From NCBI GenBank assembly GCA_944389385.1, contig CALXMC010000002.1, forward strand, positions 1 to 64,000: DNA of 64,000 nucleotides, given 5' to 3'. Source of the stretch: an uncultured Alphaproteobacteria bacterium. GTDB lineage: Bacteria; Pseudomonadota; Alphaproteobacteria; Rs-D84. The position numbers and the translations under genes are program-made. Below are positions 49,069 through 64,000 of the stretch, piece after piece. Below the pieces are notes generated by a model. It was not told where the DNA came from and searched no databases. It saw only the letters and a list, made by a program, of their open reading frames with translations. How positions within the stretch are numbered: position 1 is the stretch's first letter; every line of letters begins with the position of its first letter.

Positions 49069-51225
49069 ATGAGAACAGGAATTTTAATCGCTTTATTATG
49101 TTTCTTGCCGGGGATTGCGGATGCCGCTACGGCGCGTGATCAGGCTGAAAATGTGCGTGTCGGTGTAAATCGAATGGCTCAGGCGGCTGTCAGAATTCCG
49201 GATATGACTGTGGATTTACCAACAGACAGTACCACATTCCAACCAACGTTGTCGGAAAAGCCTGATGTGCCATCGACTGGCGGTGGTGATAACGATGATG
49301 ATGGTGATGATGATACACCGGATCAGCCGGTTGTTGAACCGTCCAGTGAAACATGTCGTGAAGCGTATCGTGCGTGTATGGATGAATTTTGTTTGTTGGA
49401 TGAGTCTGAAGGCAGTCGTTGTGCGTGTTCGTCAAATATAAATCAGTCGAAATCGTTAATCCAAGAAATTCAAGATATCCAGGCCGAAGCAGATAAATTA
49501 TATACCGAGGGTGTCGAACGTGAACAGATGGGTGCCCAGGCGCGTTTGGTCTTTGGTGAAAGCGAGGCTGCACAAAAAAGTTCGCGTGTGTCTGGTATTA
49601 ACTTTGCAGACTGGATAAGCAGCGGCAGTGATGATGACAGTTTGGGCGCAGACAGTGATATTGGGGATTCTTTGTATGCGATGGCGGCTGAATTTTGCGC
49701 CAGTCGTTTGGAGGCCTGTGGTGATGATGCCGCGATGGAGGAAATGTTATATTCGCGTATGGTTGTCCAGGATTGCAAGACTTTTGAACGTTATTTGAAT
49801 GATCAAAAAACTGTGGCCGAGATGAATTTGCGTACTGCTGAATCCGCCGTGCGCCAGGCGCGTTTACAAATGTTGGATACAACAAATAAGTATAATCGCG
49901 GCGAATGTTTGTTGGCTTATCGTTCGTGTATCGCAGACAAGGGCGGTTGTGGCGTTAATTTTGAAAACTGTTTGGATGCCGATTTGTTAAACCGTCGTGC
50001 GAATGCGTGCGAAAATGTTTTGGATCAGTGTATGGCTGTGCGTGAATATGTTCTGGAAGATTGGGAGGCTGAATCAGAAATGATTTTGGTCGAAGCAGCA
50101 AAATATGCCGATCGTAATGCGCGCGGAACATGTTTGGCGCGAATCCAATTGTGTTTGGAAGACAGTTGTTCGACCGAGACAAATTCTGCATGTTTAACCG
50201 ACGTTAATGTCGCGGCTGGTATTTGTCCGGTTATTGACGAATGCGAGGATATGATTCCAGGAATAAAAGCGACTGTAAATGACAAATTGGGATATTTGCG
50301 TTTGCAATTTTGCCAAAACGATGTCGATTCTTGTTTGCGTGACAGATGTGGCGAAAACTTTACTGCGCCGGAATGTGTTGGGAAAAGTGCGCGCGAAATC
50401 GCGGAACTGTGCCCCCAAAATATGTTCCCGTCTTGCAAGAATGAAACTCAATTCGACATCATTGTCCAGGCCGCTTTGATGCAGATGGATTACCAGATGT
50501 TGCAGGGATGCTTGAATTATTTCAGTGAACAATTGGGCGCGGTTTGTGGAACGGATATGTCTTGCTTGCCATTGGATACGCAAATTGCATCGTTGACCGA
50601 GGTTCCCGATAACCAAGAAGATTTGGCGGCCCTGCGCGAGTCTGTCAAGGCAACTACGCAGTCGGCGGTCGATGAATTCTTTGAACAATTCGAAGCGAAT
50701 AAAACGGTGGCGGCGTGTCAAGACAGTCAAAAACCGTCTGATCGGCGCAGTTTGGGCGACAGCGTATTTACCAGTGCAAAAATGATTGCGGAAATAAATG
50801 CACAAAATCGTTCTATGCGTGAACTGGAAAGCAAAATCGCAGAATTATCGCGTGAGCAAGAATTGGAAGAGGCTGAACAAAACTGCTATAATACGTACCA
50901 AGTTGAAGATCCAAAAGAAATGGAAGGGCAAAATTACAGTTATATCCGCAGTGTAACATGGGAACCTGCTTTGCGTAATTGCCATGTTTGCCGTATGCAG
51001 CAGGTTTGTGAAGAAGGTGGCCAAGACAAGATGACCGGCGCGTTACAGGGTGTCGCAGGTGGTTTGTCGGCCGGCGCGTCAATGGGTACCATGGTTAATG
51101 CCGGATGGGGTACGTTAATCGGTGGTGTGGTTGGTGCCGTTGGTGGTGGATTTATGGGCGCTGCGGCCAGTCACGAAGATACTTTCTGTCAGGAAATAGA
51201 AAGTTGTGAAGATATAAACATGTAA
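49069..51225 (+). CDS. Large exported cysteine-rich protein (CMD-motif family) with glycine-zipper helix
   Basis: 718 residues from the ATG at 49069 (a GTG at 49060 is in frame; TAGGGTGG is the ribosome binding site). The signal peptide ends IADA. An Asp-rich linker precedes the CMD motif (CREAYRACMDEFC). CGxDF modules are CLLAYRSC...CGVNFENC and a variant CQNDVDSC-x4-CGENF. The terminal cysteine region is split by a Gly/Ala helix (GALQGVAGGLSAGASMG, then GGVVGAVGGGFMG). It ends C-E-D-I-N-M. Confidence 0.88.
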   Translation: MRTGILIALLCFLPGIADAATARDQAENVRVGVNRMAQAAVRIPDMTVDLPTDSTTFQPTLSEKPDVPSTGGGDNDDDGDDDTPDQPVVEPSSETCREAYRACMDEFCLLDESEGSRCACSSNINQSKSLIQEIQDIQAEADKLYTEGVEREQMGAQARLVFGESEAAQKSSRVSGINFADWISSGSDDDSLGADSDIGDSLYAMAAEFCASRLEACGDDAAMEEMLYSRMVVQDCKTFERYLNDQKTVAEMNLRTAESAVRQARLQMLDTTNKYNRGECLLAYRSCIADKGGCGVNFENCLDADLLNRRANACENVLDQCMAVREYVLEDWEAESEMILVEAAKYADRNARGTCLARIQLCLEDSCSTETNSACLTDVNVAAGICPVIDECEDMIPGIKATVNDKLGYLRLQFCQNDVDSCLRDRCGENFTAPECVGKSAREIAELCPQNMFPSCKNETQFDIIVQAALMQMDYQMLQGCLNYFSEQLGAVCGTDMSCLPLDTQIASLTEVPDNQEDLAALRESVKATTQSAVDEFFEQFEANKTVAACQDSQKPSDRRSLGDSVFTSAKMIAEINAQNRSMRELESKIAELSREQELEEAEQNCYNTYQVEDPKEMEGQNYSYIRSVTWEPALRNCHVCRMQQVCEEGGQDKMTGALQGVAGGLSAGASMGTMVNAGWGTLIGGVVGAVGGGFMGAAASHEDTFCQEIESCEDINM

Positions 51226-51230
51226 TTTGT

Positions 51231-51260
51231 AATTTGGGCACTTTGCCCAAATTATATAAT
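51231..51260 (+). promoter_or_regulatory. Hairpin and -10-like box between two family genes
   Basis: AATTTGGGC-ACTTT-GCCCAAATT (51231-51253) is a perfect 9-bp stem. TATAAT (51255-51260) follows directly, 14 bases before the next start codon. It may reduce read-through and give the second gene its own promoter. Confidence 0.45.
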
Positions 51261-51274
51261 TGTGGGAATAAGCG

Positions 51275-53785
51275 ATGAGAGTAAAAATCTTTTTGACGTC
51301 TGTGTTATGTTTGATTGTGGCGGGGGTGGCGGTTGATTCTTTTGCGTTGACGGCTGCTAAAAAACAGGCTGCGATTCAACAAGGTACGACCGTGCGTACC
51401 AAAGTTGAAGCCACTGGTTTGTACGACCAGGCGTGTTATGACGCTTATTTCAGTTGCATGGATCAATTTTGTATTACTGAAAATGCCAGTGGTGGTGCAT
51501 GCGGGTGCAGTGATGATATTATTGGGTATAATTCCGAGTTGGAAGAAATCCAGGCGATGATAAATGAAGCCAACCGTATTCGCACGGAAGAGATTGAACG
51601 TGTTAAAGCCGGTGCCAATGCTGATATTGTGTTTTCGGGCGAACGCCGGTATGATAAAGATGGTAATATTCTGGATGTGGGCGAATATACCGAAGAAGAA
51701 CAGAAAGAACGTGAACGTGCCGATTTGTTGGCTATGTGGAATACCACCTATGATGACGAAGAAGATATTTGGGATGATGGTTCTGGGGAAGATATGTCCA
51801 CTATGCAGGGGGCGCAATTAAAAAGTGCCGCCAATGAACTATGTGTGAACCAGGTGCCCGAAGAATGTGCGGATGATTTGGCGTTCTTGCAACAATTATA
51901 TTCGCGTCAAATTACATCTGATTGTTTGGGATTCAAAAATTCTTTGGCCAAGCAGCGCGCAGATGCGGAAATCGAATTGGCAGATGCAGAAAGCGCTGTG
52001 CGCACCGCGTTACAGGAAAGTTTTGAAAGCGCAAATAAATACGACCTGGGGCAATGTATGGTCGAGTTCAGAAATTGTATGCGTACCGAAGATGCGTGTG
52101 GTGAAGATTGGGAAAATTGCGTCGGCGTCGTTGCCGCTGAAAATGCCCAGGCTGAAACAACCAGTACCGCCGGAACCAAATATAAAAGTGTCGATACATT
52201 CTTTATATCCGATGCGACAATGGAAATTTTGAATTCAAAACGTCCGATTTGCGAAAGTGTTTTGGCACAATGTGTTGCCGTCCGGGACGAGGTTTGGCCC
52301 CGTTTCTTGAAAGAATCCGCACCCACAATTCGTGTGGCGGAAAGTATGGCTGAATCCAAATTCCGTCAATCTTGCCTGACCAAGATTTCTGATTGTATTC
52401 AAACCGCGTGCCGTGATGATATTGCGGGCAAAGGGGTCGCAACCATGGATGCGTGTTTGGCACGTCCCGATATGGCGCGCAGTTTCTGCAAGGTTGAAAT
52501 TGACCCATGCGAACGCATGGAACCCCAGATTTGGGACTATGTCCAAGATAAATTGGCCGCTATGCGTGTGGACGCATGTACCCAGGAAGTAAAAGATTGC
52601 TTTACTGCGGATACACGTTGTGGGCCGAATTTTGAAAACTGTATCGGTATGGATTATGATTACATCCATGATATATGCCCAATTGACTCATTGGTCGTGT
52701 GTAAACAAGATAATGAAAATTTCAGTATGGATGATTTGGATGGAATCTTGATGGGGTTGTATCTGAATATCGATAATGCCTTGATAGAACAGTGTCAAAA
52801 TCTGGTCGATCAAAAAATGGCTGAAATTTGCGGCAGTACAACCGACTGTAATTACTTCGCGGCCGATGATACGATTGGTTCGGGATCGTTGCGTTCGCAA
52901 AAAGATGGCGATATATATCGCGTGACTGGGATGATTTCGTTCGGCAGTATCAAGATGGGCGACATGGATGGTGAAACCGTTGGTGATGGTAATGGTGGCA
53001 CGATGAAATTGGGCCCGGGTGAAATCGGTGTTGCGGATTATATAGAAAAAATAAAAGAAGAAAATAAAAATAACGGCATGGATGAAGAAGAACGTAATGC
53101 CATTATCGCAACAATCGAAGAAGAACTGAATAATATCGCGGGTACGATTAACCGAACAATAGATTTAATCGAAAGTGACCCTGAAATTCAGTACTGTGTA
53201 AGCGGGCGCGATTTATCACAAATTACCGGGGAAGAGGGCGCAAAAACATCCGCACGATTCCCGAATTTGTTGAACCAGGTAAAGATGCAGATTGCTGTAT
53301 CCGCATTGCGTCAGGCCCAGGATAATTATAACGCGAAATTAAATACTGCAATAGCAGAAGCAACACGTGATGCCGACCTGGACGTCGCACAATACATGTG
53401 CCAAAAAATGGCCGAGAATGGCGGCACGAGCACGGTGGGCGTGGAAACCCGCACAACGTTGGCACCGCCGTACTCCATCAGTTACGAGGTTGGCGTCGGT
53501 TTGACTGCTGATGAATTGACCCAGGGCGGTTCAGGCGTTGTACGTTCCGGTGGCGTCAAGTTCAGCAATGGCGGATATTTGGGCGGTGCCAGTTTTGAAG
53601 GTGGCGGTTCGTCCAAAGAAGTTACGGCCATATTCAGTCGTGAGACCAGAATCTGCCACATCTGTACAACAATTACGACCGAGAATTGTAAAACAACGGG
53701 CAGCAGCAGTTGGTTCCACAATAATCGGAATACATCTTGCAGCACGGAAACAACCGATCCAATATGCGAAGATATCCAGATGTAA
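51275..53785 (+). CDS. Large exported cysteine-rich protein (CMD-motif family)
   Basis: The 836-residue protein has a signal-like N-terminus (VKIFLTSVLCLIVAGVAVDS). The Arg/Thr-rich stretch is shorter than in its relatives. It has the CMD motif (CYDAYFSCMDQFC, C-x9-C-x-C-S) and an acidic helical region. The modules are CMVEFRNC...CGEDWENC and CTQEVKDC...CGPNFENC. A Gly-rich region near 740-780 precedes the end, C-x2-C...C-E-D-I-Q-M. Same strand as and 49 bases after its paralogue. Confidence 0.88.
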   Translation: MRVKIFLTSVLCLIVAGVAVDSFALTAAKKQAAIQQGTTVRTKVEATGLYDQACYDAYFSCMDQFCITENASGGACGCSDDIIGYNSELEEIQAMINEANRIRTEEIERVKAGANADIVFSGERRYDKDGNILDVGEYTEEEQKERERADLLAMWNTTYDDEEDIWDDGSGEDMSTMQGAQLKSAANELCVNQVPEECADDLAFLQQLYSRQITSDCLGFKNSLAKQRADAEIELADAESAVRTALQESFESANKYDLGQCMVEFRNCMRTEDACGEDWENCVGVVAAENAQAETTSTAGTKYKSVDTFFISDATMEILNSKRPICESVLAQCVAVRDEVWPRFLKESAPTIRVAESMAESKFRQSCLTKISDCIQTACRDDIAGKGVATMDACLARPDMARSFCKVEIDPCERMEPQIWDYVQDKLAAMRVDACTQEVKDCFTADTRCGPNFENCIGMDYDYIHDICPIDSLVVCKQDNENFSMDDLDGILMGLYLNIDNALIEQCQNLVDQKMAEICGSTTDCNYFAADDTIGSGSLRSQKDGDIYRVTGMISFGSIKMGDMDGETVGDGNGGTMKLGPGEIGVADYIEKIKEENKNNGMDEEERNAIIATIEEELNNIAGTINRTIDLIESDPEIQYCVSGRDLSQITGEEGAKTSARFPNLLNQVKMQIAVSALRQAQDNYNAKLNTAIAEATRDADLDVAQYMCQKMAENGGTSTVGVETRTTLAPPYSISYEVGVGLTADELTQGGSGVVRSGGVKFSNGGYLGGASFEGGGSSKEVTAIFSRETRICHICTTITTENCKTTGSSSWFHNNRNTSCSTETTDPICEDIQM

Positions 53786-53811
53786 AAAATCCCCCGTCTG
53801 GGGGATTTTTT
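53785..53811 (+). terminator. Terminator after the gene at 51275
   Basis: CCCCC-GTCT-GGGGG stem with A-run before and T-run after. Confidence 0.8.
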
Positions 53812-53888
53812 ATCGTAATAAAATTCCTAGACATTTTTATAAATAAATGTGATATTATATGTGCGTACAATAACAAAAGGGGTTGTGA

Positions 53889-54269
53889 ATGAAAAAAATA
53901 TCGATTGTGGCGGCTGCGGTCGCTTTGGTTTCTGGGGCTGCTGTGGCTGATTTTCGTCCAAATGCGCCTCAGCCGAATGTTAATATGCGTGGTGGTTTCG
54001 TCGGTGGCGAAGAACAGATTTCAACCGTAAAACAGGCAAAAGAAATGCGTGATGATGTTCCTGTTATTTTGCAGGGACGTATTGTTCAACGTATGGGCGG
54101 CGAAAAATATTTATTTGAAGACGCAACAGATTCAATCACTATCGAAATCGACGATGATGATTGGCGCGGCCAGGTTGTAACACCGTCTGATACAGTAAAA
54201 CTGTATGGCGAGGTTGATGCCGGTTTATTCAAGACTGAAATCGATGTAGATTACGTCGAAAAGATGTAA
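53889..54269 (+). CDS. BOF-domain (YgiW/YdeI-type) periplasmic protein
   Basis: The 126-residue protein has a signal peptide ending AAVA and a bacterial OB-fold: STVKQAKEMRDDVPVILQGR, QRMGGEKYLFEDATDSITIE, and VKLYGEVD. These match the YgiW/YdeI/NirD-like BOF family, linked in enterobacteria to stress tolerance. AAAAGGGG precedes the ATG. Confidence 0.9.
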   Translation: MKKISIVAAAVALVSGAAVADFRPNAPQPNVNMRGGFVGGEEQISTVKQAKEMRDDVPVILQGRIVQRMGGEKYLFEDATDSITIEIDDDDWRGQVVTPSDTVKLYGEVDAGLFKTEIDVDYVEKM

Positions 54270-54297
54270 AAAAGTCCGCCAATCGGCGGATTTTTTA
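54268..54297 (+). terminator. Terminator after the BOF-domain gene
   Basis: TCCGCC-AATC-GGCGGA followed by six T. Confidence 0.8.
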
Positions 54298-54792
54298 GTT
54301 ACTTGTTATTCGTGATAGACCACCCCGCCCGGATTCTACCCACGCAAACTATGTTTGCGCGGGACCCGGGGCGGTGGGCGTTCGTGCGACCGATGCGACG
54401 TGTAGCCCTTTCCACTCTTGGGCGGTGGGGATTAGACCACCCCGGCACGCTGGCGCGTGCCACCCCTCCGCTAGATGAGGAACTTTGTTCTGCGACGGTA
54501 CTGGGGGCAGCCCCATCCGTTGTAAAGGGGGACTTAGGCCGTGGTGGGAAGGTACCAAGTTCCCCTCCATTGGAGGGGTGGCGGCTTGCCGCCGGGGTGG
54601 TTAGAGACTGCGGAATTATCCACTTAGTCCCTTTGTCATCGCGAGCGGAGCGTGGCGATCCAGTAAATAAAAAAGCACTGCGGGCGGATGCCCGCAGGCA
54701 TATTGCACTGGATTGCCACCGTCGTACGACAACGGTTCCAACGTTTCGCGCTCCTTCGCAATGACAGCGGGGAAATCACGAGTAACCTGTAA
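54298..54792. repeat. Composite GC-rich intergenic repeat
   Basis: No gene is seen. It starts GTTACTTGTTATTCGTGATAG and ends CACGAGTAACCTGTAAC, the same inverted terminal motif as 15679-16260. The block 54620-54771 is the inverted form of 15693-15855. A constant-flank hairpin has arms GCAAAC/GTTTGC near 54343-54359. CCCCTCCGCTAGATGAGGAAC recurs near 54463. Confidence 0.7.
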
Positions 54793-54815
54793 CAAAAAAC
54801 GGGGCGATGCCCCGT
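54793..54815 (-). terminator. Terminator of the MotA/MotB-like pair
   Basis: CGGGGC-ATC-GCCCCG read on the minus strand, followed by six T. Confidence 0.8.
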
Positions 54816-54820
54816 GCTTA

Positions 54821-55933
54821 TTAACGATTGGTTAATTGTAATTCTATACGACGATTTTGTTGCAAACTGGTCGCGTCGGTACCCAAAGTAACAGGGTGTA
54901 AATCGCCAAAACCACTGGGAACCAGGCGACGACGCGATACACCATTGGCCGCCAATTCGGTCGCCACAGCGTTCGCACGCAACAATGACAGTTCCATATT
55001 ATTCGAATAATCGCGCGTGCCACGCATAACTTGTTTGCGATCTGTATGTCCGTCAACGCGGATAATCCAATCGATGTCTGTCGGGATTTTGTCTTCCAAA
55101 TCGCGGATTACCTTTGCAATCAAGCGCAGTTGATTTTTACCCTCGGGCGACAGGGTATAAGAACCACTGCTGAACAAAATATCGCTGGAAATTATGAAAC
55201 GGTCGCCTTGGGCCTCGATAAATTTTTCTTCGCCAAGTGCGTCTTTTATTCCGCGGTAAAATTCAGATTGGTATTGTGCAACGTCATTTAATTCTGCGAC
55301 TTTATCGGCCAAAGCCTGGTTCAATCGATTCGACATTTCCAGATATTCTATGTCTTTTTGGTTTGATTCTTCTTGGGCGGCATCCAGTGCGGCCTGTAAC
55401 TTATTTAATTGTTCGGCCAATTCTGCACGTTGTGCTGACATTTCTTGCTGTAATGCGCGGCGTTCTTGTTCCAGTTCAGCGGTGCGTTGTTTGTCCAAGT
55501 TGGCCTGATTCAATTGGGTGGTTAATTCAGCGACCTGGGCCGACAAATCCGCGCCCTGGGTTTGTAATTCTGCGACTTTGGCCTCGTAATCTGCAATCAG
55601 TTCATCCATTGTCATATCAACCTGTTGCAGTTCGGTGGTTAATTGGTTGTTATTTGCAGATAAATTTTCCAATTCGGCACGCGCCAAAATCAGTAAACGT
55701 TTGGCTTCTTCTTCGTCGGCAGTCATTTGCACAATGCGTTCAGATTGTTCTGCGTTGATTTTTTTCAAATCAGCCACCGTTTTCGCACCTGTGTCACGGT
55801 TAAATACACTGGTTGTTGTCCATAAAAACACAAACACAATCAACAAAAATATAAGTATAATCACCAGGTTCGAAAACAAATCAACGAACGCAGGCCAAGT
55901 GTTTGCACGTTCACGAAATCTGAAATTCATCAT
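54821..55933 (-). CDS. MotB/OmpA-like peptidoglycan-binding protein
   Basis: The 370-residue protein has one TM span (residues 22-44) with the MotB-like Asp18 ahead of it. A long coiled coil (about 60-215) follows, then a C-terminal OmpA/MotB domain: FSSGSYTLSPEG, VDGHTDRKQV, LSLLRANAVATELAANG and NRRIELQL. It fits the stator-like partner of the adjacent MotA/TolQ-type gene, 24 bases upstream. Such pairs use proton flow to act on the cell wall; no flagellar genes are here. Start codons at 55933 and 55930 are both possible. Confidence 0.92.
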   Translation of the reverse strand: MMNFRFRERANTWPAFVDLFSNLVIILIFLLIVFVFLWTTTSVFNRDTGAKTVADLKKINAEQSERIVQMTADEEEAKRLLILARAELENLSANNNQLTTELQQVDMTMDELIADYEAKVAELQTQGADLSAQVAELTTQLNQANLDKQRTAELEQERRALQQEMSAQRAELAEQLNKLQAALDAAQEESNQKDIEYLEMSNRLNQALADKVAELNDVAQYQSEFYRGIKDALGEEKFIEAQGDRFIISSDILFSSGSYTLSPEGKNQLRLIAKVIRDLEDKIPTDIDWIIRVDGHTDRKQVMRGTRDYSNNMELSLLRANAVATELAANGVSRRRLVPSGFGDLHPVTLGTDATSLQQNRRIELQLTNR

Positions 55934-55957
55934 TTTTCTCTCTCTTTTTTTGGGACC

Positions 55958-56707
55958 TTATTGTGTAACTGTGTTTTTTATTTGGCGCAGATTGTCATTT
56001 ATCTGGGGCAGAACAGTTGCGACTGTATCCGTGGTTGCGACACTTGTGTGTGCAGACAGATAATCTTCAACCTCGCGGAAAATGGCATTCTGAGCCAATT
56101 GAACCTGTAACCCCAGGAATCCGACAGCCAAACTGCCCGCCAATCCCATCAGTGAACTGGTAAATGCGGTCGCCATGCCCGACAAAGGGCGGGTCAGGCC
56201 GGCCTGCATATTTTGTAAAACCGATTCGTCCGAAAAATCCAAAGCACCGATTAAGTCTGCAAATCCGCCGACGGTTAAAATCAGTCCCCAAAATGTTCCC
56301 AATAATCCCAAAAATATCAGCGTGTTTGTGATATACCGCACCGATTCGCGTGAATCTTCGAAACGATTCAAAATCATTTCCAACATGCCGTTCAATGTTG
56401 TCCCAGATATGCGGACGGGGCGTGCACGCAATATCAACGCCACGGGCCGCAACAAACGCGGGGGCAGGGCAACCCGTTTGCGGCCTGAAAAATACGCACG
56501 TGCCCATTTGTATTCGGGTAATAATTTGAATATTTCAACAAAGCACAGTCCAATTCCGAAAACAGTTGTACCAATGATGATGCCGTTTAATAACACGTTT
56601 GCCGCCGCTATGCGTAAAAATGGCGCATAGAACAAAATCAACCCAACCAACAATAATGCTGTGAACAAAGCCATGCGGTTAAGTGCGTTATGGAATTGGC
56701 GTGTCAT
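55958..56707 (-). CDS. MotA/TolQ/ExbB-like proton channel subunit
   Basis: The 249-residue inner-membrane protein has about four TM spans (near 13-30, 34-55, 130-155 and 172-196). The conserved MotA-ExbB region reads YITNTLIFLGLLGTFWGLIL and SGMATAFTSSLMGLAGSLAV. With the downstream MotB/OmpA-like gene it forms a two-gene unit seen across alphaproteobacteria. A Zorya defence role is unlikely because no ZorC/D/E partners are present. Confidence 0.9.
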   Translation of the reverse strand: MTRQFHNALNRMALFTALLLVGLILFYAPFLRIAAANVLLNGIIIGTTVFGIGLCFVEIFKLLPEYKWARAYFSGRKRVALPPRLLRPVALILRARPVRISGTTLNGMLEMILNRFEDSRESVRYITNTLIFLGLLGTFWGLILTVGGFADLIGALDFSDESVLQNMQAGLTRPLSGMATAFTSSLMGLAGSLAVGFLGLQVQLAQNAIFREVEDYLSAHTSVATTDTVATVLPQINDNLRQIKNTVTQ

Positions 56708-56847
56708 GAATCTCTCTTCTTTTGGTACCTTTACAATGATGGTAGTAAATTTTTATCGTTCAAGTCAAGCGGTTACATCACCGTATCTTTGGTTATTAAC
56801 ACAACATCCGCATGGTATGGTACAGAAAAAGTTTGTGAATATGGATG

Positions 56848-57411
56848 TTAATCCAAAAATGTCGTGCATGGGTCAGACTGCAATTTCTGCAAGTCTGCTT
56901 GGTCGCTTTCGGAATTGTCATAGAACAGATAAAACACGACTTTTCTGTCCGTTTTTTTATCTTCCTGGGAACCTGTTTTTACTTTGGCACATTGTGCGCC
57001 GACCCCACGACTTATAATTTTTACGTTTTCTGGCCGATTTTTCCAATTGGTTTGGATATAATCAGCCGCTGACAGTGCGCGTTTTGCTGATAATTGTTCG
57101 TTTGTACAAATCTTTTCTTTTGCGCACAAATCAGAAGTTTGGATAATCTTGTTGTTGTCTGTATGCGCAATCAAATACAATGTTGCAGGATAATCTGTAA
57201 ACGATGCCGCATTTTCTTCAAATTTTTCAATAACATCATCCAAAACTTTACTATTTTCTATCTTATACACCCCATCACCAAACAAAGACTCATTATACAG
57301 CCTCAATAACTCTGATGATTCCGTTTCTTCGGCCTGTGGGGCGTCTTCCTTTTCCTGTGTACTTGGTTGATCTGGATAACATCTGCCATTACCGGTATTC
57401 AAGGACTGCAA
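56848..57411 (-). pseudogene. Start-less OmpA-domain cassette (silent copy of the gene at 58836)
   Basis: A 187-codon frame opens at a TTG (57411) with no ribosome binding site and no signal peptide. It encodes the same linker as the 629-residue protein (RCYPDQPSTQEKEDAPQAEE) and an OmpA domain. The first 78 codons are nearly identical to the downstream gene. After IAHTD the domain diverges (NNKIIQTSDLCAKEK versus RDDVRKNSSLCRNDK) but keeps all OmpA landmarks and a 24-base identical island. It is inverted relative to that gene and points away from the operon, so it could be a reserve C-terminus. Alternatively it is a decaying duplicate. Confidence 0.75.
57158..57389. repeat. 232-bp inverted repeat, left arm
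   Basis: By hand alignment, 227 of 232 bases match the reverse complement of 60115-60346 without indels; the longest exact run is 89 bases. A separate 24-base exact match pairs 56922-56945 with 60559-60582. Confidence 0.9.
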
Positions 57412-57485
57412 ACGGCATAAAGCCCAAAAGAAAAAGAACCAGAATTCCGCCTTTTTTTATCTTTGAAAAATGCCGAAAAAAAAGG

Positions 57486-57515
57486 TTGGATTTTTTTGGC
57501 AAAATATGGGATAAT
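57486..57515 (+). promoter_or_regulatory. Promoter of the two-gene OmpA operon
   Basis: TTGGAT (57486-57491), 18-base spacer, GATAAT (57510-57515). It lies between the inverted repeats and would therefore invert with the operon. Confidence 0.5.
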
Positions 57516-57540
57516 GTCAAGGATCAGAAAGAATGAGAGA

Positions 57541-58839
57541 ATGAAGTTATTTCGCAGTATTTTTATTGCCGTCATTGTGATAGTTCCTGGTTTGGCGCGG
57601 GGTGAAGTTGCTAAGTTTCCAAAAGAGTATACTATGGACGCTGCCAATTCGCCAGTTTTTTATAATTCTATGATCCAACAACTTTGTGTGGGTGGCGACG
57701 GTACCATGGTGTTTATGGGATTACAGGCCATAAGGATAAATTGTACCAATGGTTGGAAAAATAACGCCGAACCAACCCAAGCAGAATTTGACAAAGCATA
57801 TGATGCAGCATTGTCAACGGCCGGGATTGGTAACAGTGCCGCTGAGAAAAGTACGAAAAACACCGATACAGTTGTATCCAGAAATACAACATCACGTGGT
57901 GGTTCTGCATCCGTTGCTACGTCGACAGTGCCGGCGTCGGGAAATCGAACGGATTATACAGTTGTCGGCAATATTGTTCGTTACACTGGTATGATTTCTG
58001 ATTGGGATTTTGTAAATGCTGATTTAAACACGGGTGGTCGCAAGGCCTTTGACAATCATTTGACGGAAAAATTCTGTATGACCACCGCGGGTAACAACGT
58101 TACTGTTGACCAGGCAGGCATAGTAATTACCTGCAATACGATAAAACCAGAAAGTATGCGCCCCAACAGTTTATTGGAAGAATATTATTACGCCCTGTGT
58201 CGTGGCAAATGTGCTGATGGTGGGGGCACATACAGCAGCGGCAGTGGAACTGGTGACGGATGCGTTTGTAAAGGAATCGTCAAGCCCGAACCCATCCCAG
58301 AATATGATGCAGAAAAATTAGAGAGATTAAATGCCCAGGTCGCACGTCAAGCGGATAAAAGTATAAGCAAAGATGTGAAACAATTAGAACAGGAATCCGA
58401 TAAGGAACTGCAAAAAGATGTAAAGGCTGACTCGCGCCAGTTGGACAAGGATATTCAAACGGAATTCAACGATATTGACGAAAGTACAGAAAAACTGACG
58501 GACGAATTAAATCGCCAAAAGTTCGAGTCCGATATGGAACAGGCTGCAATCGATGATGCGTTAATTTCCGTCGATGAAATAAATTCAGAATCCGATAAGG
58601 AACTGCAAAAACAGCTAGAATGTGAATCTAAAAATCCACCAAAGGCGGCCAAGAAAAATTTCCTTGGTATTTGGGTCTGTGTTGATACCCAGGAAACTGT
58701 TGATGCACGCAAGGCTGCGCGGGCAACAAATAAAATCTTAAACGCATTCTGGAACGAAATGGAAGACTTGGAACGTGCATTTAATAAACGCGTGCGCCAG
58801 TTGCGACGTGATGCCAAACGCGATGGGGATGACAAATGA
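57541..58839 (+). CDS. Exported coiled-coil protein, first gene of the OmpA operon
   Basis: 432 residues from the ATG at 57541, where MKLFRSIFIAVIVIVPGLARG is a clear signal peptide; the frame is open from 57463. A Ser/Thr/Arg-rich stretch lies near 105-140. A C-x-C pair sits near 241 (GDGCVCKG). A long charged coiled coil about 255-365 contains ESDKELQK twice. It overlaps the next start by four bases (ATGA), so it is translationally coupled. Unknown function, possibly a partner of the OmpA protein at the cell wall. Confidence 0.85.
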   Translation: MKLFRSIFIAVIVIVPGLARGEVAKFPKEYTMDAANSPVFYNSMIQQLCVGGDGTMVFMGLQAIRINCTNGWKNNAEPTQAEFDKAYDAALSTAGIGNSAAEKSTKNTDTVVSRNTTSRGGSASVATSTVPASGNRTDYTVVGNIVRYTGMISDWDFVNADLNTGGRKAFDNHLTEKFCMTTAGNNVTVDQAGIVITCNTIKPESMRPNSLLEEYYYALCRGKCADGGGTYSSGSGTGDGCVCKGIVKPEPIPEYDAEKLERLNAQVARQADKSISKDVKQLEQESDKELQKDVKADSRQLDKDIQTEFNDIDESTEKLTDELNRQKFESDMEQAAIDDALISVDEINSESDKELQKQLECESKNPPKAAKKNFLGIWVCVDTQETVDARKAARATNKILNAFWNEMEDLERAFNKRVRQLRRDAKRDGDDK

Positions 58840-60725
58840 TGAAAAGACCATTGGTTGCCGCTTTGATGTTGTTGTATCCGTTGGTTGCGTTTGGTGCCGC
58901 CAAGACTGATGGTGTTGATACATCCAGTTTGGAAAACGCACAAACGTTCGATGATTTGAAAGCCGCTTACCAGGATACTTCAAATGAAGTGATGAAAAAA
59001 TATGATAAGCAGATTGATCGAGAGGAAATTATTGCAGCCCAGGGTCAAGTCTTGGAGAATATAGAAGCGTTAGACGAAGTGCTTGCAGAAGACGCGTTAA
59101 AAGCAGAAAAAGAAGCAAAAAAGAACCAAGACTCAGAGCCCGATGCGACATTATCAGAAGAAGATTCATTGGCGCAGATAGAAGAATTACAGGCGAATGC
59201 GGACGCTATGCGTGAAAAAGAACAATCGTTTGGTAATCGTATGGTTGGTGGTGCAGCCATGGGCACGATGGGGATTGGGGGTCAGATGATAGGTTCTGCG
59301 TTGGCGGAACAAAGCGCTGATTCAGATGCAGAAATGGATATGGCTGCATACCTTGCGACATTCAAATGCGATTATGGTGCCGGGAAAAATATCGCGGGCG
59401 GTACGCTGAATGTGGAATTGCCTGGTGCGAATATATTATTGCCGATATATACAGAATACGTAACATTGGCGGCGGATTTGAAGACTCGGAAAGAAGCGTT
59501 GGGGATGGCGCCAGGGATAGAATCGAACGAGATATTGGATGCGGCGACATCTGGTTTATATGACAATGTGTCGACTGGGGTGACGGGTGGTGCGTATGCG
59601 TCGATTGCGCGCGCGCTGATGAATCCCGAGGGTGCGGATGCAGCGGCCTGGGCGGCACAAAAGGCGGAAACGTCTGAACAATTAAAGGCAGGTGCGATAA
59701 CGGCTGGGGTTGGTGCCTTGGTTGGGATAAGTGGCAATGTATTGCTGAACGAGATAGGTCCGAACAAGGTTGAAGAACGCAGTGATGAAATAATGTCTGA
59801 ATACGACAAGAAACGCCGCATCATCCGCGAAGAGTTGGAAGAAGTAGAAGAAGATTCATTGGAACAACAAATCACTGAAGCCCCCGACGTCGAACCGTTT
59901 AAGATAAGTGATGCGGAGTTGGCATGTCAATCTGTGGGAACGTGGGATGCAGAGTTAAATACCTGTCATTGCAATAATGGAAATCCATGGGATTTTGATA
60001 ATTTGGTTTGCATGGGTGATGAAGTGATAAATGGAGATAGTTGTTTTGATTCTGGTGGTGAATGGGATGGTGATAAGTGTGTGTGTCCAGATAAGTATAG
60101 GTTGAATCCCAGTGATGGCAGATGTTATCCAGATCAACCAAGTACACAGGAAAAGGAAGACGCCCCACAGGCCGAAGAAACGGAATCACCAGAGTTATTG
60201 AGGCTGTATAATGAGTCTTTGTTTGGTGATGGGGTGTATAAGATAGAAAATAGTAAAGTTTTGGATGATGTTATTGAAGATTTTGAAGAAAATGCGGCAT
60301 CGTTTACAGATTATCCTGCAACGTTGTATTTGATTGCACATACAGATCGTGATGATGTTCGGAAAAATTCTTCTTTGTGTCGAAATGATAAGATTTGTGA
60401 CAATGATGCGCTTTCCGAGGCGCGGGCGAATTCGGTAAAGAATTATTTGAAAGAACATTGGCCAAGTAATCTGACCGATGTAAAAATAAAAACGCAGGCC
60501 GCTGGGGAAAAATGTGCAGATCAGAGTGCAATTAGCGACGACAAACAGAAATTAGACCGAAAAGTCGTGTTTTATCTGTTCTTTGATGATGTTAAAGCTG
60601 ATCAGGAGTATTACGAGCAGTTACAGGACAATCCCTGTTATAAGTTAAACAGAAAATCAAGTACTGTAAGTGAAGCGGTTAGAGAGACAAATGTTTTGAA
60701 AAAATTGTTTAAAAACATGGCTTAA
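58836..60725 (+). CDS. Exported protein with Cys-repeat and C-terminal OmpA domain (switchable C-terminus candidate)
   Basis: The 629-residue protein has a signal peptide (LVAALMLLYPLVAFGAA) and a helical acidic region. A Gly/Ala helix (MVGGAAMGTMGIGGQMIG) near 137-155 and a central domain follow. Two Cys repeats share C-x3-G-x-W-D-x(2,5)-C-x-C (ACQSVGTWDAELNTCHC and CFDSGGEWDGDKCVC, near 364-425). An OmpA/MotB peptidoglycan-binding domain spans about 455-590 (LYLIAHTD, ALSEARANSVKNYL, DRKVVFYLF). Codons about 427-503 lie in the 232-bp inverted repeat shared with the silent cassette. Confidence 0.88.
   Translation: MMKRPLVAALMLLYPLVAFGAAKTDGVDTSSLENAQTFDDLKAAYQDTSNEVMKKYDKQIDREEIIAAQGQVLENIEALDEVLAEDALKAEKEAKKNQDSEPDATLSEEDSLAQIEELQANADAMREKEQSFGNRMVGGAAMGTMGIGGQMIGSALAEQSADSDAEMDMAAYLATFKCDYGAGKNIAGGTLNVELPGANILLPIYTEYVTLAADLKTRKEALGMAPGIESNEILDAATSGLYDNVSTGVTGGAYASIARALMNPEGADAAAWAAQKAETSEQLKAGAITAGVGALVGISGNVLLNEIGPNKVEERSDEIMSEYDKKRRIIREELEEVEEDSLEQQITEAPDVEPFKISDAELACQSVGTWDAELNTCHCNNGNPWDFDNLVCMGDEVINGDSCFDSGGEWDGDKCVCPDKYRLNPSDGRCYPDQPSTQEKEDAPQAEETESPELLRLYNESLFGDGVYKIENSKVLDDVIEDFEENAASFTDYPATLYLIAHTDRDDVRKNSSLCRNDKICDNDALSEARANSVKNYLKEHWPSNLTDVKIKTQAAGEKCADQSAISDDKQKLDRKVVFYLFFDDVKADQEYYEQLQDNPCYKLNRKSSTVSEAVRETNVLKKLFKNMA
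60115..60346. repeat. 232-bp inverted repeat, right arm
   Basis: Partner of 57158-57389, located inside the gene at 58836 and ending exactly where the two OmpA domains diverge in protein sequence. Confidence 0.9.
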
Positions 60726-60748
60726 AATATGTATTTATGCGAGTTTTT

Positions 60749-60774
60749 CCCGCACGGGTTGTGCGGGATTTTTT
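60749..60774 (+). terminator. Terminator of the OmpA operon
   Basis: CCCGCAC-GGGTT-GTGCGGG followed by six T. Confidence 0.8.
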
Positions 60775-61110
60775 AGTTACTCGTGACTTGTTACTCGTGT
60801 TTCATCCTTTGCCAGGGCTTCGGGTGATAAGTCCCCACCCCCCGTCGCGCTTTGCGCGACACCCCCCGCCCCCACACCGGGCCCCGCGCAAACAAAGTTT
60901 GCGTGGGTGGATTCTGGGGCGGTGGGCATTCGTACGACCGACGCGACGAATTATTGTAATTCTTTCCACTCTTGGGCGGTGGGGATTAGACCACCCCGGC
61001 ACTTCGTGCCACCCCTCCGCAGAGGGGAACCTAGACCGCGACGGTATGGTCTAAGTTCCCCTCCATTGGAGGGGGGGCGGTCACCAGACCGCCGGGGTGG
61101 TTAGAGACTG
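60775..61110. repeat. GC-rich intergenic repeat
   Basis: No gene is seen. It begins AGTTACTCGTGACTTGTTACTCG and carries a constant-flank hairpin with arms GCAAAC/GTTTGC (near 60888-60904, inverted orientation). The CACCCCGGCACTTCGTGCCACC block and a GCCGGGGTGG end lie near 61090. Only the left terminal motif TTACTCGT is present. Confidence 0.65.
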
Positions 61111-61138
61111 CGACCTTTTGTAGCTTTTAACAAAACGC

Positions 61139-61166
61139 TTGATTTTATTAAAATTTTCGGCATAAT
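61139..61166 (+). promoter_or_regulatory. Promoter of the rpsF-rpsR unit
   Basis: TTGATT (61139-61144), 16-base spacer, CATAAT (61161-61166); 60 bases of leader precede rpsF. Confidence 0.55.
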
Positions 61167-61226
61167 TGGTGGGATTCCTGCTGACGACATGGGGTTGTCG
61201 GCTGTATAAACCAAAGGAAACTTTGA

Positions 61227-61565
61227 ATGGCTTACTATGAAAGCGTCCTGGTTTTTCGCCAGGATCTGACCGAACCGCAGGTCAAAGAAAAAGCGGCAAA
61301 ATATGCTGACATTGTTCGCGAATTGGGCGGGGATGTTAAATCTACCGAGTTTTGGGGATTGAAAAATCTGGCCTATATCATCCGTAAAAATCGCAAGGCA
61401 CACTATGTTATGTTGAATATCGATTTGCCGGGCGACAAATTGGCGGAATATGAACGGCGTGCCCGTATCGACGAAGACGTTATTCGTTTCTTGAACGTTC
61501 GTGTCGATGAATTATCAGATGCGCCGTCAATCATGATGAAAAAGAATACCGAGGAGGCTGAATAA
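61227..61565 (+). CDS. rpsF: 30S ribosomal protein S6
   Basis: S6 (112 residues) binds the 16S central domain with S18. [19 protein letters not shown] at the start and [19 protein letters not shown] in the middle are diagnostic. Its stop overlaps the rpsR start by one base (TAATG), so the pair is coupled. The AAGGAAAC site precedes the ATG. Confidence 0.97.
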
Positions 61566-61792
61566 TGGCAGTTCGTGCAGCAATTTATCGTAAGAAATCT
61601 AACCCATTAAAGGGCAAGGTTATCGATTACAAAGATGTTAAAACACTGTTGCGTTTTATCACTGAACGCGGCAAAATTGTTCCGTCGCGTATCAGTGGCG
61701 TGTCCCAGAAAGATCAGCGCGAGTTGGCAAAAGCCATCAAGCGCGCACGGCATTTAGGGTTGTTGCCATTCGTTCGTAACAATCTGGGATAA
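61565..61792 (+). CDS. rpsR: 30S ribosomal protein S18
   Basis: S18 (75 residues) forms a heterodimer with S6. The [23 protein letters not shown] core (residues 20-42) and [14 protein letters not shown] ending are standard. The GAGGAGGCTGA upstream lies within rpsF. rplI follows, but only after a 333-base repeat-filled spacer. Confidence 0.97.
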
Positions 61793-61821
61793 AAATCAAT
61801 CATAGCGCACCATCTGCGCGC

Positions 61822-62064
61822 GGTTGGGCTTGCTCATGTATGTCAAATACACTACGCAATCCCAACCGGACGCATCTGGTACGTTATGATTGATTTTGCG
61901 GGGTCTGGGGTGAACGCTGCCAATCCCCGCACATAATCGCCCCAGGTGTGTACGGTTTGTGTAATGTATGTCAAATACACTACGCAATCCCAACCGGACG
62001 CATCTGGTACGTTATGATTGATTTTGCGGGGTCTGGGGTGAACGCTGCCAATCCCCGCACATAA
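61822..62064 (+). repeat. Hairpin element with 101-bp exact direct repeat
   Basis: A hairpin with outer arms 61822-61833/61856-61867 (12 positions, one mismatch) and inner TGTAT/ATACA is followed by an exact 101-base duplication. The copies are 61836-61936 and 61964-62064, 128 bases apart. The second copy carries the right half of the hairpin only. The loop-and-right-arm core (TGTATGT...AATACACT-x-CGCAA) matches the element at 12664. The rest of the rpsR-rplI spacer shows no gene. Confidence 0.75.
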
Positions 62065-62125
62065 CTGAATCAGGTACAGAAAAATATTTGGGTTTTACCC
62101 TAACTTGAAATAAAGGACAGATAAA

Positions 62126-62737
62126 ATGAAAATTATTTTAACAGAAAAAATTACAAAATTGGGCAACATCGGCGATACTGTCGAGGTTAAAACAGGTTTC
62201 GCACGCAATTATTTGTTGCCATTGGGCAAGGCTATGCGTTGGTCGCGTGAAAATGTGGCTTTGTTCGAAGCGAAAAAGGCTGAATTGCAGGCGCGTCAGG
62301 ATGCCGCACGTAAATCTGCCGAGGCCAATGTGGATGCGGTTAAAAATGCAAAATTGTATATGATTCGTCAGGCCGGTGATACAGGTCAATTGTATGGTTC
62401 TGTTTCTACGCGCGATATTGCGCGCACATTGCGCGAGATTGCAAATGTTGCAGTTGAATCAGCCCAGGTTATGTTGGGCGCGCCGATTAAATCAGTTGGT
62501 GTGTTCGATACGCAAATTGCTTTGCATCCGGATGTTATCGTTCCGGTCAAAGTATATGTGGCACAAACCCAAGATGAAATCGAGGCTCTGGTTGCGGGTA
62601 AAGTTCTGACGTTCGGTAATACAAAGACCGAAGAAGAGGAATCCGAGAATGCAGCGGAATCCGCAGATGAACAACCGGCTGAACAACAGCCAACAGAAGA
62701 AGCGCCGGTCGAAGAAAAAGCGGCAGACGCAGAATAA
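62126..62737 (+). CDS. rplI: 50S ribosomal protein L9 with acidic tail
   Basis: L9 protects the frame at the L1 stalk. The N-terminal domain (LGNIGDTVEVKTGFARNYLLP) and the C-terminal RNA-binding domain (LYGSVSTRDIARTL) are intact. The product runs to 203 residues; from about 167 it is a Glu/Ala/Pro-rich tail, a further instance of the low-complexity tails on L3, L17 and L22. Confidence 0.96.
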   Translation: MKIILTEKITKLGNIGDTVEVKTGFARNYLLPLGKAMRWSRENVALFEAKKAELQARQDAARKSAEANVDAVKNAKLYMIRQAGDTGQLYGSVSTRDIARTLREIANVAVESAQVMLGAPIKSVGVFDTQIALHPDVIVPVKVYVAQTQDEIEALVAGKVLTFGNTKTEEEESENAAESADEQPAEQQPTEEAPVEEKAADAE

Positions 62738-62765
62738 AAAAATCGCCCATCTGGGCGATTTTTTA
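62736..62765 (+). terminator. Terminator after rplI
   Basis: TCGCCCA-TC-TGGGCGA with A-run before and T-run after. Confidence 0.85.
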
Positions 62766-62789
62766 TTAAATTTTTTATCGGGCTTGTTA

Positions 62790-62795
62790 TATAAT
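62790..62795 (+). promoter_or_regulatory. -10 box of recO, near-leaderless
   Basis: TATAAT is perfect and ends 9 bases before the recO ATG at 62805. No -35 close to consensus is evident. No ribosome binding site lies in the short leader. Confidence 0.5.
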
Positions 62796-62804
62796 GGGCG
62801 CGAA

Positions 62805-63458
62805 ATGAAGTTGGATTCTGTTGGTGTTTTAATAAATTTGCGTCCCTTTGGTGAACGGGATTGTGTCGCACATGTTTTTACCCGTGATTTCGGTGTAATG
62901 TGTGGTGTTATGCGCGGGGCCCAGGTCGCACGAAAAAACAGACCGTTAATTGGACAAATTGGCGATGTTTCATGGAATGCGCGACTGGATTCACAGTTGG
63001 GTGCGTTTCATTGGGAGTCTGAAAAAAATTTGGCTGCACCGTTGATGATGCGGCATGAGACATTATCATATATGAATGCGACATTCGCTTTGGTTGATGC
63101 TTTGTTGCCAGAACGAGAACAGTTTTGTACGTTATATAACGAAACAATCGAACTGATGCGCGAGTTAAACGGAAATAACCCAAAACAGGCGTATTTGGTG
63201 TGGGAAATTTCGCTTTTGCGTGAATTGGGATATGCGCTGAATTTAACGGCTTGTTCAGGATGTGGAACTTGCGAAAATTTAATGTATTTATCGCCGCGGA
63301 CTGGGCGGGCGGTATGTGAAAAATGTGCCGCGCCGTATATCGAAAAATTGTATAAATTGCCGTTGGATTTAAGTGTTACTGGGGCGTTTTTGGAACGGGC
63401 TTGCGCGGCCCAAGGTGTTGATTTGCCGTGCGCACGAAAAAAGTTGAAAATCTGGTAA
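62805..63458 (+). CDS. recO: DNA repair protein RecO
   Basis: RecO (217 residues) helps load RecA with RecR. The N-terminal OB-fold is seen as GVLINLRPFGERDCVAHVFT. A Cys4 zinc motif (CSGCGTC...CEKC) lies near residues 154-180. The frame is open from within rplI at 62649. The ATG at 62805 gives the normal start, is not preceded by a ribosome binding site, and lies 9 bases after a TATAAT. Confidence 0.93.
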   Translation: MKLDSVGVLINLRPFGERDCVAHVFTRDFGVMCGVMRGAQVARKNRPLIGQIGDVSWNARLDSQLGAFHWESEKNLAAPLMMRHETLSYMNATFALVDALLPEREQFCTLYNETIELMRELNGNNPKQAYLVWEISLLRELGYALNLTACSGCGTCENLMYLSPRTGRAVCEKCAAPYIEKLYKLPLDLSVTGAFLERACAAQGVDLPCARKKLKIW

Positions 63459-63466
63459 ATATTCCC

Positions 63467-63495
63467 TTGCACAATAATTTTTTTTTCAGTATGGT
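63467..63495 (+). promoter_or_regulatory. Promoter of the DsbA-family gene
   Basis: TTGCAC (63467-63472), 17-base spacer, TATGGT (63490-63495); followed by AAAAGGAG ahead of the ATG at 63528. Confidence 0.55.
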
Positions 63496-63527
63496 GGGGT
63501 TGTTCAACAGAATAAAAGGAGAAAATT

Positions 63528-64000
63528 ATGACTTGGACAATCTTGATTCTGGTCGTTGGTATCCTGTTGTTCTTGTTTGGTGGCTTGATGTTACCCAAGG
63601 GCGACGAGAAAAAACCTTCTGCTGGAAAAATCGTTGCAAAAAAATGTATTTCTTTGATTGCAATCATCTTGATTTCGGGCAGTATGTGCCGTCTGTACAT
63701 GCCGTATTACTTGACTGCGGTTAATCCTGCTATCGTTCAGGAAATGATTACCAGTATGCAGGAACAGCAGCAGGCTGAAAAGAATAAACAGATTCGCAAG
63801 TTCGTTCGTGAACAGGGCGATTCTATGATGCGCGATGCACCTGTTTTGGGTAACCGCAAAGATGCCAAGAAAACGATTTATGTTTGGACAGACTTCTCTT
63901 GCCCATACTGCCGTCGTGTTCATGGTGAATTGGATCGTGTAATTGCGGGTCGTGATGACGTTCGCGTGGTTGTTAAAAACTTCTCGATTCATGGACCATT
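63528..64000 (+). CDS. DsbA-family thiol oxidoreductase, partial (runs off the window)
   Basis: 157 codons are visible before the window edge. Two hydrophobic segments (residues 3-21 and about 43-60), a Gln/Glu/Lys-rich helix (about 75-95), then a thioredoxin-fold start are present. In the latter TIYVWTDFSCPYCRRVHGEL holds the CPYC redox motif. This is the Com1/DsbA-like type seen in alphaproteobacteria. It introduces or isomerises disulfides in the periplasm, a need implied by the cysteine-rich proteins here. AAAAGGAGAAAATT precedes the ATG. Confidence 0.88.
   Translation, partial: MTWTILILVVGILLFLFGGLMLPKGDEKKPSAGKIVAKKCISLIAIILISGSMCRLYMPYYLTAVNPAIVQEMITSMQEQQQAEKNKQIRKFVREQGDSMMRDAPVLGNRKDAKKTIYVWTDFSCPYCRRVHGELDRVIAGRDDVRVVVKNFSIHGP

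Follow-up and report, generated by a model that had tools for sequence, protein, structure and literature searches.

Does a start-less copy of a domain, lying inverted beside its gene, mark a genetic switch, or is it what remains of a lost gene? The question is raised by a locus in a window of 64,000 nucleotides (nt), the whole stretch of DNA studied here, from the 993-kb genome of an uncultured Alphaproteobacteria bacterium. An OmpA-domain cassette lies there between motA and a two-gene operon whose second gene ends in a related OmpA domain, and the two domains share an inverted repeat. A first-pass annotation proposed that recombination between the repeat arms turns the operon round and fuses gene 2 to the alternative domain. 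Our analysis suggests instead that the cassette is probably the C-terminal end of a twin operon, once head-to-head with the present one and since deleted, and that it can recombine with gene 2 incidentally. The features concerned are as follows.

56848..57411, minus strand: start-less OmpA-domain cassette on the motA side, codirectional with motA; 187 codons from TTG 57411, with its own stop
57158..57402, minus strand: arm A, the 5' half of the cassette OmpA domain, 97% over 245 nt to arm B
56848..57157, minus strand: cassette tail past the arm, the divergent second half of the OmpA domain
57397..57407, no strand: junction, shared with the relative G132 up to CCTTG(G/A)AT and divergent thereafter, with TTG.AT microhomology
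57408..57539, plus strand: region upstream of gene 1, from the alignment to G132
57540..58839, plus strand: gene 1 (g1a), secreted, of unknown family; mechanical open reading frame (ORF) start at TTG 57463
58836..60725, plus strand: gene 2 (g2a), 629 amino acids (aa), with a signal peptide, an N-terminal domain (~95-340), a Cys-rich linker and a C-terminal OmpA domain
60102..60346, plus strand: arm B, inside gene 2, the first half of its OmpA domain
60347..60725, plus strand: gene-2 tail past the arm, on the rpsF side

The 5' end of a second gene 1 at the junction in G132

The region upstream of gene 1 (57408-57539) is 91-100% identical to that of the nearest relative, G132 (record CALXXD010000006.1, L042), and the match continues at 97-100% as far as the bases CCTTG at 57397-57404. 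Past this point the window reads TTGAATACCGGTAATGGCAGATG into the cassette, while G132 reads TTGGATTTTTTTGGCAAATATGCGATAAT into the promoter of another gene 1, which is divergently oriented and of which the initial ~30 codons are present; its 5' end is MKNFQYIFAILIAFMPLSAFADYTVTGVV. This 5' remnant aligns to gene 1 with a score of 54 (best of 200 shuffles, 30), and a promoter-like GGATAAT-type element found upstream of gene 1 is present in it too. At the window join, TTG.AT stands on either side, which is what a deletion at microhomology would leave. With this remnant of a second gene 1 at the same place in G132, it is simpler to see the cassette as what a twin operon left behind when it was deleted. 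It has the marks of a gene relic, with no start or 5' part of its own and with other parts of the lost gene kept by the relative at the same place.

The simplest common ancestor would have carried two head-to-head operons, the second of which (g1b-g2b) would have pointed at motA, the orientation of the operon in most relatives. The body of the twin may have been lost in a single deletion that began at the g1b promoter and ended near codon 420 of g2b, sparing the OmpA tail by motA. Homologous recombination between the inverted paralogues would have made the 5' half of this tail like its counterpart in gene 2, either before the deletion or along with it. The twin would now be split between species, G132 having retained the 5' end of the second operon and the window its 3' end. 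The present cassette would be silent and, with 232 nt at 98% and the RecA gene that this genome encodes, would still be able to recombine with gene 2; rare inversion, with a swap of tails, or conversion would be a by-product rather than an evolved switch.

Several points weigh against this reading. The G132 relic is short, at ~30 codons, and the cassette tail contains no stops or frameshifts and retains the OmpA landmarks. None of the relatives compared carries two complete head-to-head operons, and recent homogenisation of the arms would be expected from repeated inversion as well.

Gene 1 and its divergent G132 remnant are far apart, and the 3' part of gene 1 is 99% identical to G132, with a synonymous divergence (dS) of 0.011. 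Window positions 57397-59149, covering gene 1 and running into gene 2, match L042 4907-6314 at 96-100% identity; the identity drops at ~59150 and homology ends near 59740. For the flanking genes, dS between the window genome (G000) and G132 is ~0.2-2. The near-identical module looks to have been recently exchanged between the window species and G132. In the latter, the operon lies between perfect inverted repeats of 60 base pairs (bp) made of interspersed-repeat material (L042 4478-4639 and 7927-8095), and related repeats flank the motA-cassette-operon region of the window (54303-54770 and 60770-61110).

The inverted repeat and the orientation of the operon

The inverted repeat is exactly as first described, 232 nt at 57158-57389 and 60115-60346 with 227/232 identical positions and no indels, a 98% match far beyond chance. 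A repeat finder extends the arms to 245 nt (57158-57402 and 60102-60346; 97% complementary, no indels). Five mismatches lie within the 232-nt core, at 60189, 60279, 60281, 60323 and 60338, the longest mismatch-free run being 89 nt, and the repeat sequence is present in exactly two copies in the 993 kb. Between the arms are gene 1, the region upstream of it and nearly all of gene 2, so the annotated enclosure of the operon holds, except for the end of gene 2.

We simulated a crossover in the arms. Gene 1 and gene 2 were inverted and an intact protein of ~606 aa, in frame and carrying the cassette tail, was obtained. The locus accordingly offers two features of a homology-driven switch, flanking arms long and alike enough for homologous recombination and an intact alternative product upon inversion, and RecA-dependent inversion at the arms is possible. 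It differs from a shufflon, having neither an adjacent site-specific recombinase nor short defined crossover sites. Indeed, as the first-pass annotation had it, no recombinase is encoded among the ORFs of 50000-64000; five clear serine recombinases are encoded elsewhere in the genome.

Could the arrangement be an assembly artefact of a metagenome-assembled genome (MAG)? Inverted repeats are prone to misjoining and the relatives are draft MAGs, but the exact arm runs (<=89 nt) are under the usual read length, the junctions are internal to a 173,830-base contig and the sequence at the G132 junction fits a join of biological origin; we regard an artefact as extremely improbable.

For the comparison of relatives, one genome per species was used (156 congeneric genomes, 183 in the family), and orientation was scored against two fixed flanks.

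55958..56707, minus strand: motA/exbB-like gene, weak PF01618, in 142/156 congeneric genomes
61227..61565, plus strand: rpsF, in 138/156 congeneric genomes

The majority of congeneric genomes have rpsF and motA adjacent, divergent and ~200 bp apart; some carry between them both gene 1 and gene 2 as a unit, or just gene 2. Gene 2 is directed towards motA in seven congeneric species (G025, G029, G102, G039, G155, G139 and G033) and towards rpsF in the window and in G057, as is an orphan tail in G149. It also runs into rpsF in G132, where motA-ompA is displaced beyond rplI and, relative to the window species, turned round. Both orientations that the switch proposal called for are therefore found, but between species (seven motA-ward against the rpsF-ward window, G057 and G132), which shows turning in evolution and not turning within a population. 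Since the gene-2 tail of the relatives adjoins motA, the cassette occupies the position of the gene-2 C-terminus in the majority arrangement. The simulated flip gives the order rpsF- / g1+ g2+ / motA+ ompA+ and so recreates that of the seven motA-ward species; this restoration of the majority order is the strongest support for the geometry first proposed.

Silent cassettes were sought more widely. A C-terminal copy outside its gene was found at 0 of ~47 other family loci, so that silent cassettes are not kept among relatives, and orphan tails occur in only 2/156 congeneric genomes, the window and G149. The sole outside match, L049, proved to be a linker of the neighbouring gene and not an OmpA tail, and a contig scan for close relatives returned only the G132 record (L042) and one distant record (L043). 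Further start-less OmpA cassettes, which the first-pass annotation had suggested looking for in the genome itself, did not turn up: the DNA is present twice and the protein type is encoded just twice, and the other six OmpA matches all belong to other genes.

The two OmpA tails

No in-frame ATG is present in the ORF 56848-57411 on the minus strand, which ends in its own stop codon, so the cassette is start-less as annotated. Against PF00691 (curated cut-off 27.2 bits), the cassette scores 21.8 bits (E 2.4e-4) and gene 2 scores 24.5 bits (E 3.5e-5), both just under the cut-off. The model of the cassette domain has an OmpA/MotB-type peptidoglycan-binding fold (mean predicted local distance difference test score, pLDDT, 88.8), and a Foldseek search with this model retrieved OmpA, MotB, TssL and Pal structures, with E values of 1e-7 to 1e-5 for OmpA, MotB and TssL. 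By its modelled fold and its conserved ligand-site D and R, the cassette can be assigned to the OmpA C-terminal-type domains, with predicted peptidoglycan binding.

Past the arms, identity between the cassette tail and the gene-2 tail drops immediately (gapless, 162/309 nt and 38/103 aa). Yet both tails keep the OmpA landmarks T-D and N..L...R, in keeping with the first description, and the T-D and R columns are invariant across the OmpA tails aligned. Within the arms, the non-synonymous divergence (dN) is 0.016 and dS 0.067. Compared with the saturated synonymous sites of the adjoining tails and the dS of ~0.2-2 in the G000-G132 flanks, this low value indicates that the arms were homogenised recently. 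Such recent likeness of the first half of the OmpA domain requires homologous recombination between the inverted copies, in the form of conversion, crossover or conversion-linked deletion.

A maintained two-state switch would have the arms cross over, with RecA or assisted by a recombinase, to alternate the OmpA tails and vary a peptidoglycan-binding or exposed domain. The in-frame flip that restores the gene order of relatives, the two orientations across the genus, the recent homogenisation of the arms, the intact cassette, the presence of RecA and the conserved D and R of two tails that model or align as OmpA domains all agree with it. However, cassettes are not conserved, with none at the ~47 other family loci and orphan tails in the window and G149 only; the five arm mismatches persist; the G132 junction is explained by deletion and a relic; and the orphan tail of G149 is apparently under relaxed selection (see below). 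We consider such a switch unlikely. Of the first-pass proposal the geometry is supported, with the in-frame fusion and the recent recombination of the arms in its favour; a working or maintained switch is not supported, given the family loci and the G132 junction. Doubtful likewise is the broader proposal of a recombinase-free two-state inversion of the whole two-gene operon, by which an alphaproteobacterium with a small genome would swap the peptidoglycan-binding C-terminal domain of one of its surface proteins, the orientation of the locus having flipped repeatedly in the genus between fixed rpsF and motA.

Alternatively, the cassette may be a silent donor that feeds OmpA segments to gene 2 by one-way conversion, with no inversion, as pilS does to pilE. 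The variable segment is bounded by identity on both sides, the 232 nt on one and, on the other, a single identical block of 24 nt over RKVVFYLF near the 3' end. This block hints at a second conversion tract (chance ~0.004 from codon usage, for a block picked after the fact). The cassette is moreover a mosaic, its middle part closest to the motA-side tails of G029 (47%) and G102 (46%) and its end part closest to the tail of G025. Against this stand the single donor in the genome, the short segments on which the mosaic is based, tail trees that do not resolve, and a whole-tail codon-identity test with no excess, 20 identical residues sharing codons versus 16.8 expected. On balance, one-way donation seems quite improbable. 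Classes of tails by position were suggested by pairwise identity; as the trees were unresolved, they were not used as proof.

A one-off inversion would have a motA-ward operon recombine with a pre-existing rpsF-side orphan tail and flip once, leaving its own tail at motA. An rpsF-side orphan tail does exist, in G149, orientation differs between species, and, in its middle part, the gene-2 tail most resembles that of G057, on the rpsF side, while the cassette is nearest to motA-side tails. Those same tail trees do not resolve, however, and the second gene-1 5' end at the cassette junction of G132 is left unexplained, which makes this history very improbable in our view.

An orphan tail in G149

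In G149, all that lies between rpsF and motA is an OmpA tail, open and start-less, where its sister G057 carries a full gene 2. From this pair, deletion of the gene-2 body can be seen to leave tails behind. Between the G149 tail and G057 gene 2, dN is 0.308 and dS 0.322 (dN/dS ~0.96), versus a dN/dS of 0.05 to 0.06 for motA, ompA and rpsF of the same two genomes. The orphan tail is apparently under relaxed selection; alternatively, expressed tails may evolve fast, no pair of them being close enough to calibrate the ratio. The first-pass annotation had named a cassette dN/dS near 1 in relatives as the pattern that speaks against a switch, and the G149 tail displays it, albeit in another species and with the window cassette intact.

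Genes of the operon and its surroundings

Gene 1 has no match in Pfam or NCBIfam, and a consensus promoter scan gave no confident promoter at 57408-57539. The N-terminal domain of gene 2, in the part encoded by 58836-60110, likewise belongs to no Pfam or NCBIfam family. It is found in 149/156 congeneric genomes with very different C-termini and marks an undescribed surface-protein family. Genomes carry 1-6 copies of this domain (~95-340 in gene 2), on proteins of ~240 to 2,500 aa. The OmpA-tailed type of gene 2 is confined to this genus (12/183 family genomes). Another member of the family (1,831 aa) lies ~2 kb from a small serine recombinase (198 aa, PF00239) at C5:111518-112111 of the same genome (L100 3519-4112).

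The neighbouring pair at 54821-56707 on the minus strand encodes the MotA/ExbB-like protein together with an OmpA protein of the peptidoglycan-binding kind. The former is weakly similar to ZorA, a component of Zorya defence, yet is present in nearly all congeneric genomes. On the other side, the rpsR-rplI gap (61836-62075) contains a tandem 128-bp duplication (1.9 copies, 95%) with inverted-repeat stretches.

Comparison with known systems

In the R64 shufflon, the invertase Rci joins the constant N-terminal part of pilV to alternative C-terminal segments (PMC11852207). Inversion at the present locus would similarly join one N-terminal part to alternative C-terminal segments, but R64 has a dedicated invertase and 31-bp sfx sites, whereas here the homologous arms are long, there is one alternative, no recombinase is adjacent and switching is only predicted. 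In pneumococcal SpnIII, inversion exchanges hsdS domains of the active gene for those of a silent one, and the inverted repeats used measure 15, 85 and 333 bp (PMC6620402), a size range similar to that of the repeat described here. Unlike our locus, SpnIII is experimentally shown, has several silent domains and a recombinase gene, and its inversion is reported to be RecA-independent.

In Mycoplasma pulmonis, vsa inversion moves a promoter and an N-terminal coding region onto silent surface-protein genes (PMC4534519), and the sap inversions of Campylobacter fetus are named in PMC11852207. Here too, a promoter and N-terminal coding region would move onto a silent copy, although vsa and sap draw on multi-gene silent repertoires and the window has a single leftover. 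The C. fetus sap inversion is RecA-dependent. In Neisseria, the promoter-less partial copies pilS, with conserved and variable stretches, are RecA-dependent donors to pilE (PMC4534519). The cassette is also a promoter-less partial copy and a possible RecA-dependent donor, but pilE has up to 19 donors and its conversion is shown, against one candidate donor here.

As a start-less 3' fragment in single copy, with a junction inside the gene, microhomology and local homogenisation, the cassette resembles a truncated paralogue under gene conversion. It departs from a plain one in that its inverted layout around the surviving operon makes a tail-swapping inversion geometrically possible. Because the cassette is not conserved among relatives, we do not file the locus with the known inversion switches. 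A literature search of partial coverage returned no match for an OmpA inversion of this kind.

If the switch were true, the locus would represent a case in which a reduced genome varies a protein by swapping domains through homologous recombination alone, with an orientation that can be scored across many species. With the cassette as the leftover of a twin operon, the reading that we prefer, it would show how inverted leftovers of duplicated surface-protein genes originate and go on recombining with the live copy. Finding an inverted, start-less domain beside a gene does not in itself demonstrate a switch, yet such inverted leftovers may be a plausible starting point for inversion switches.

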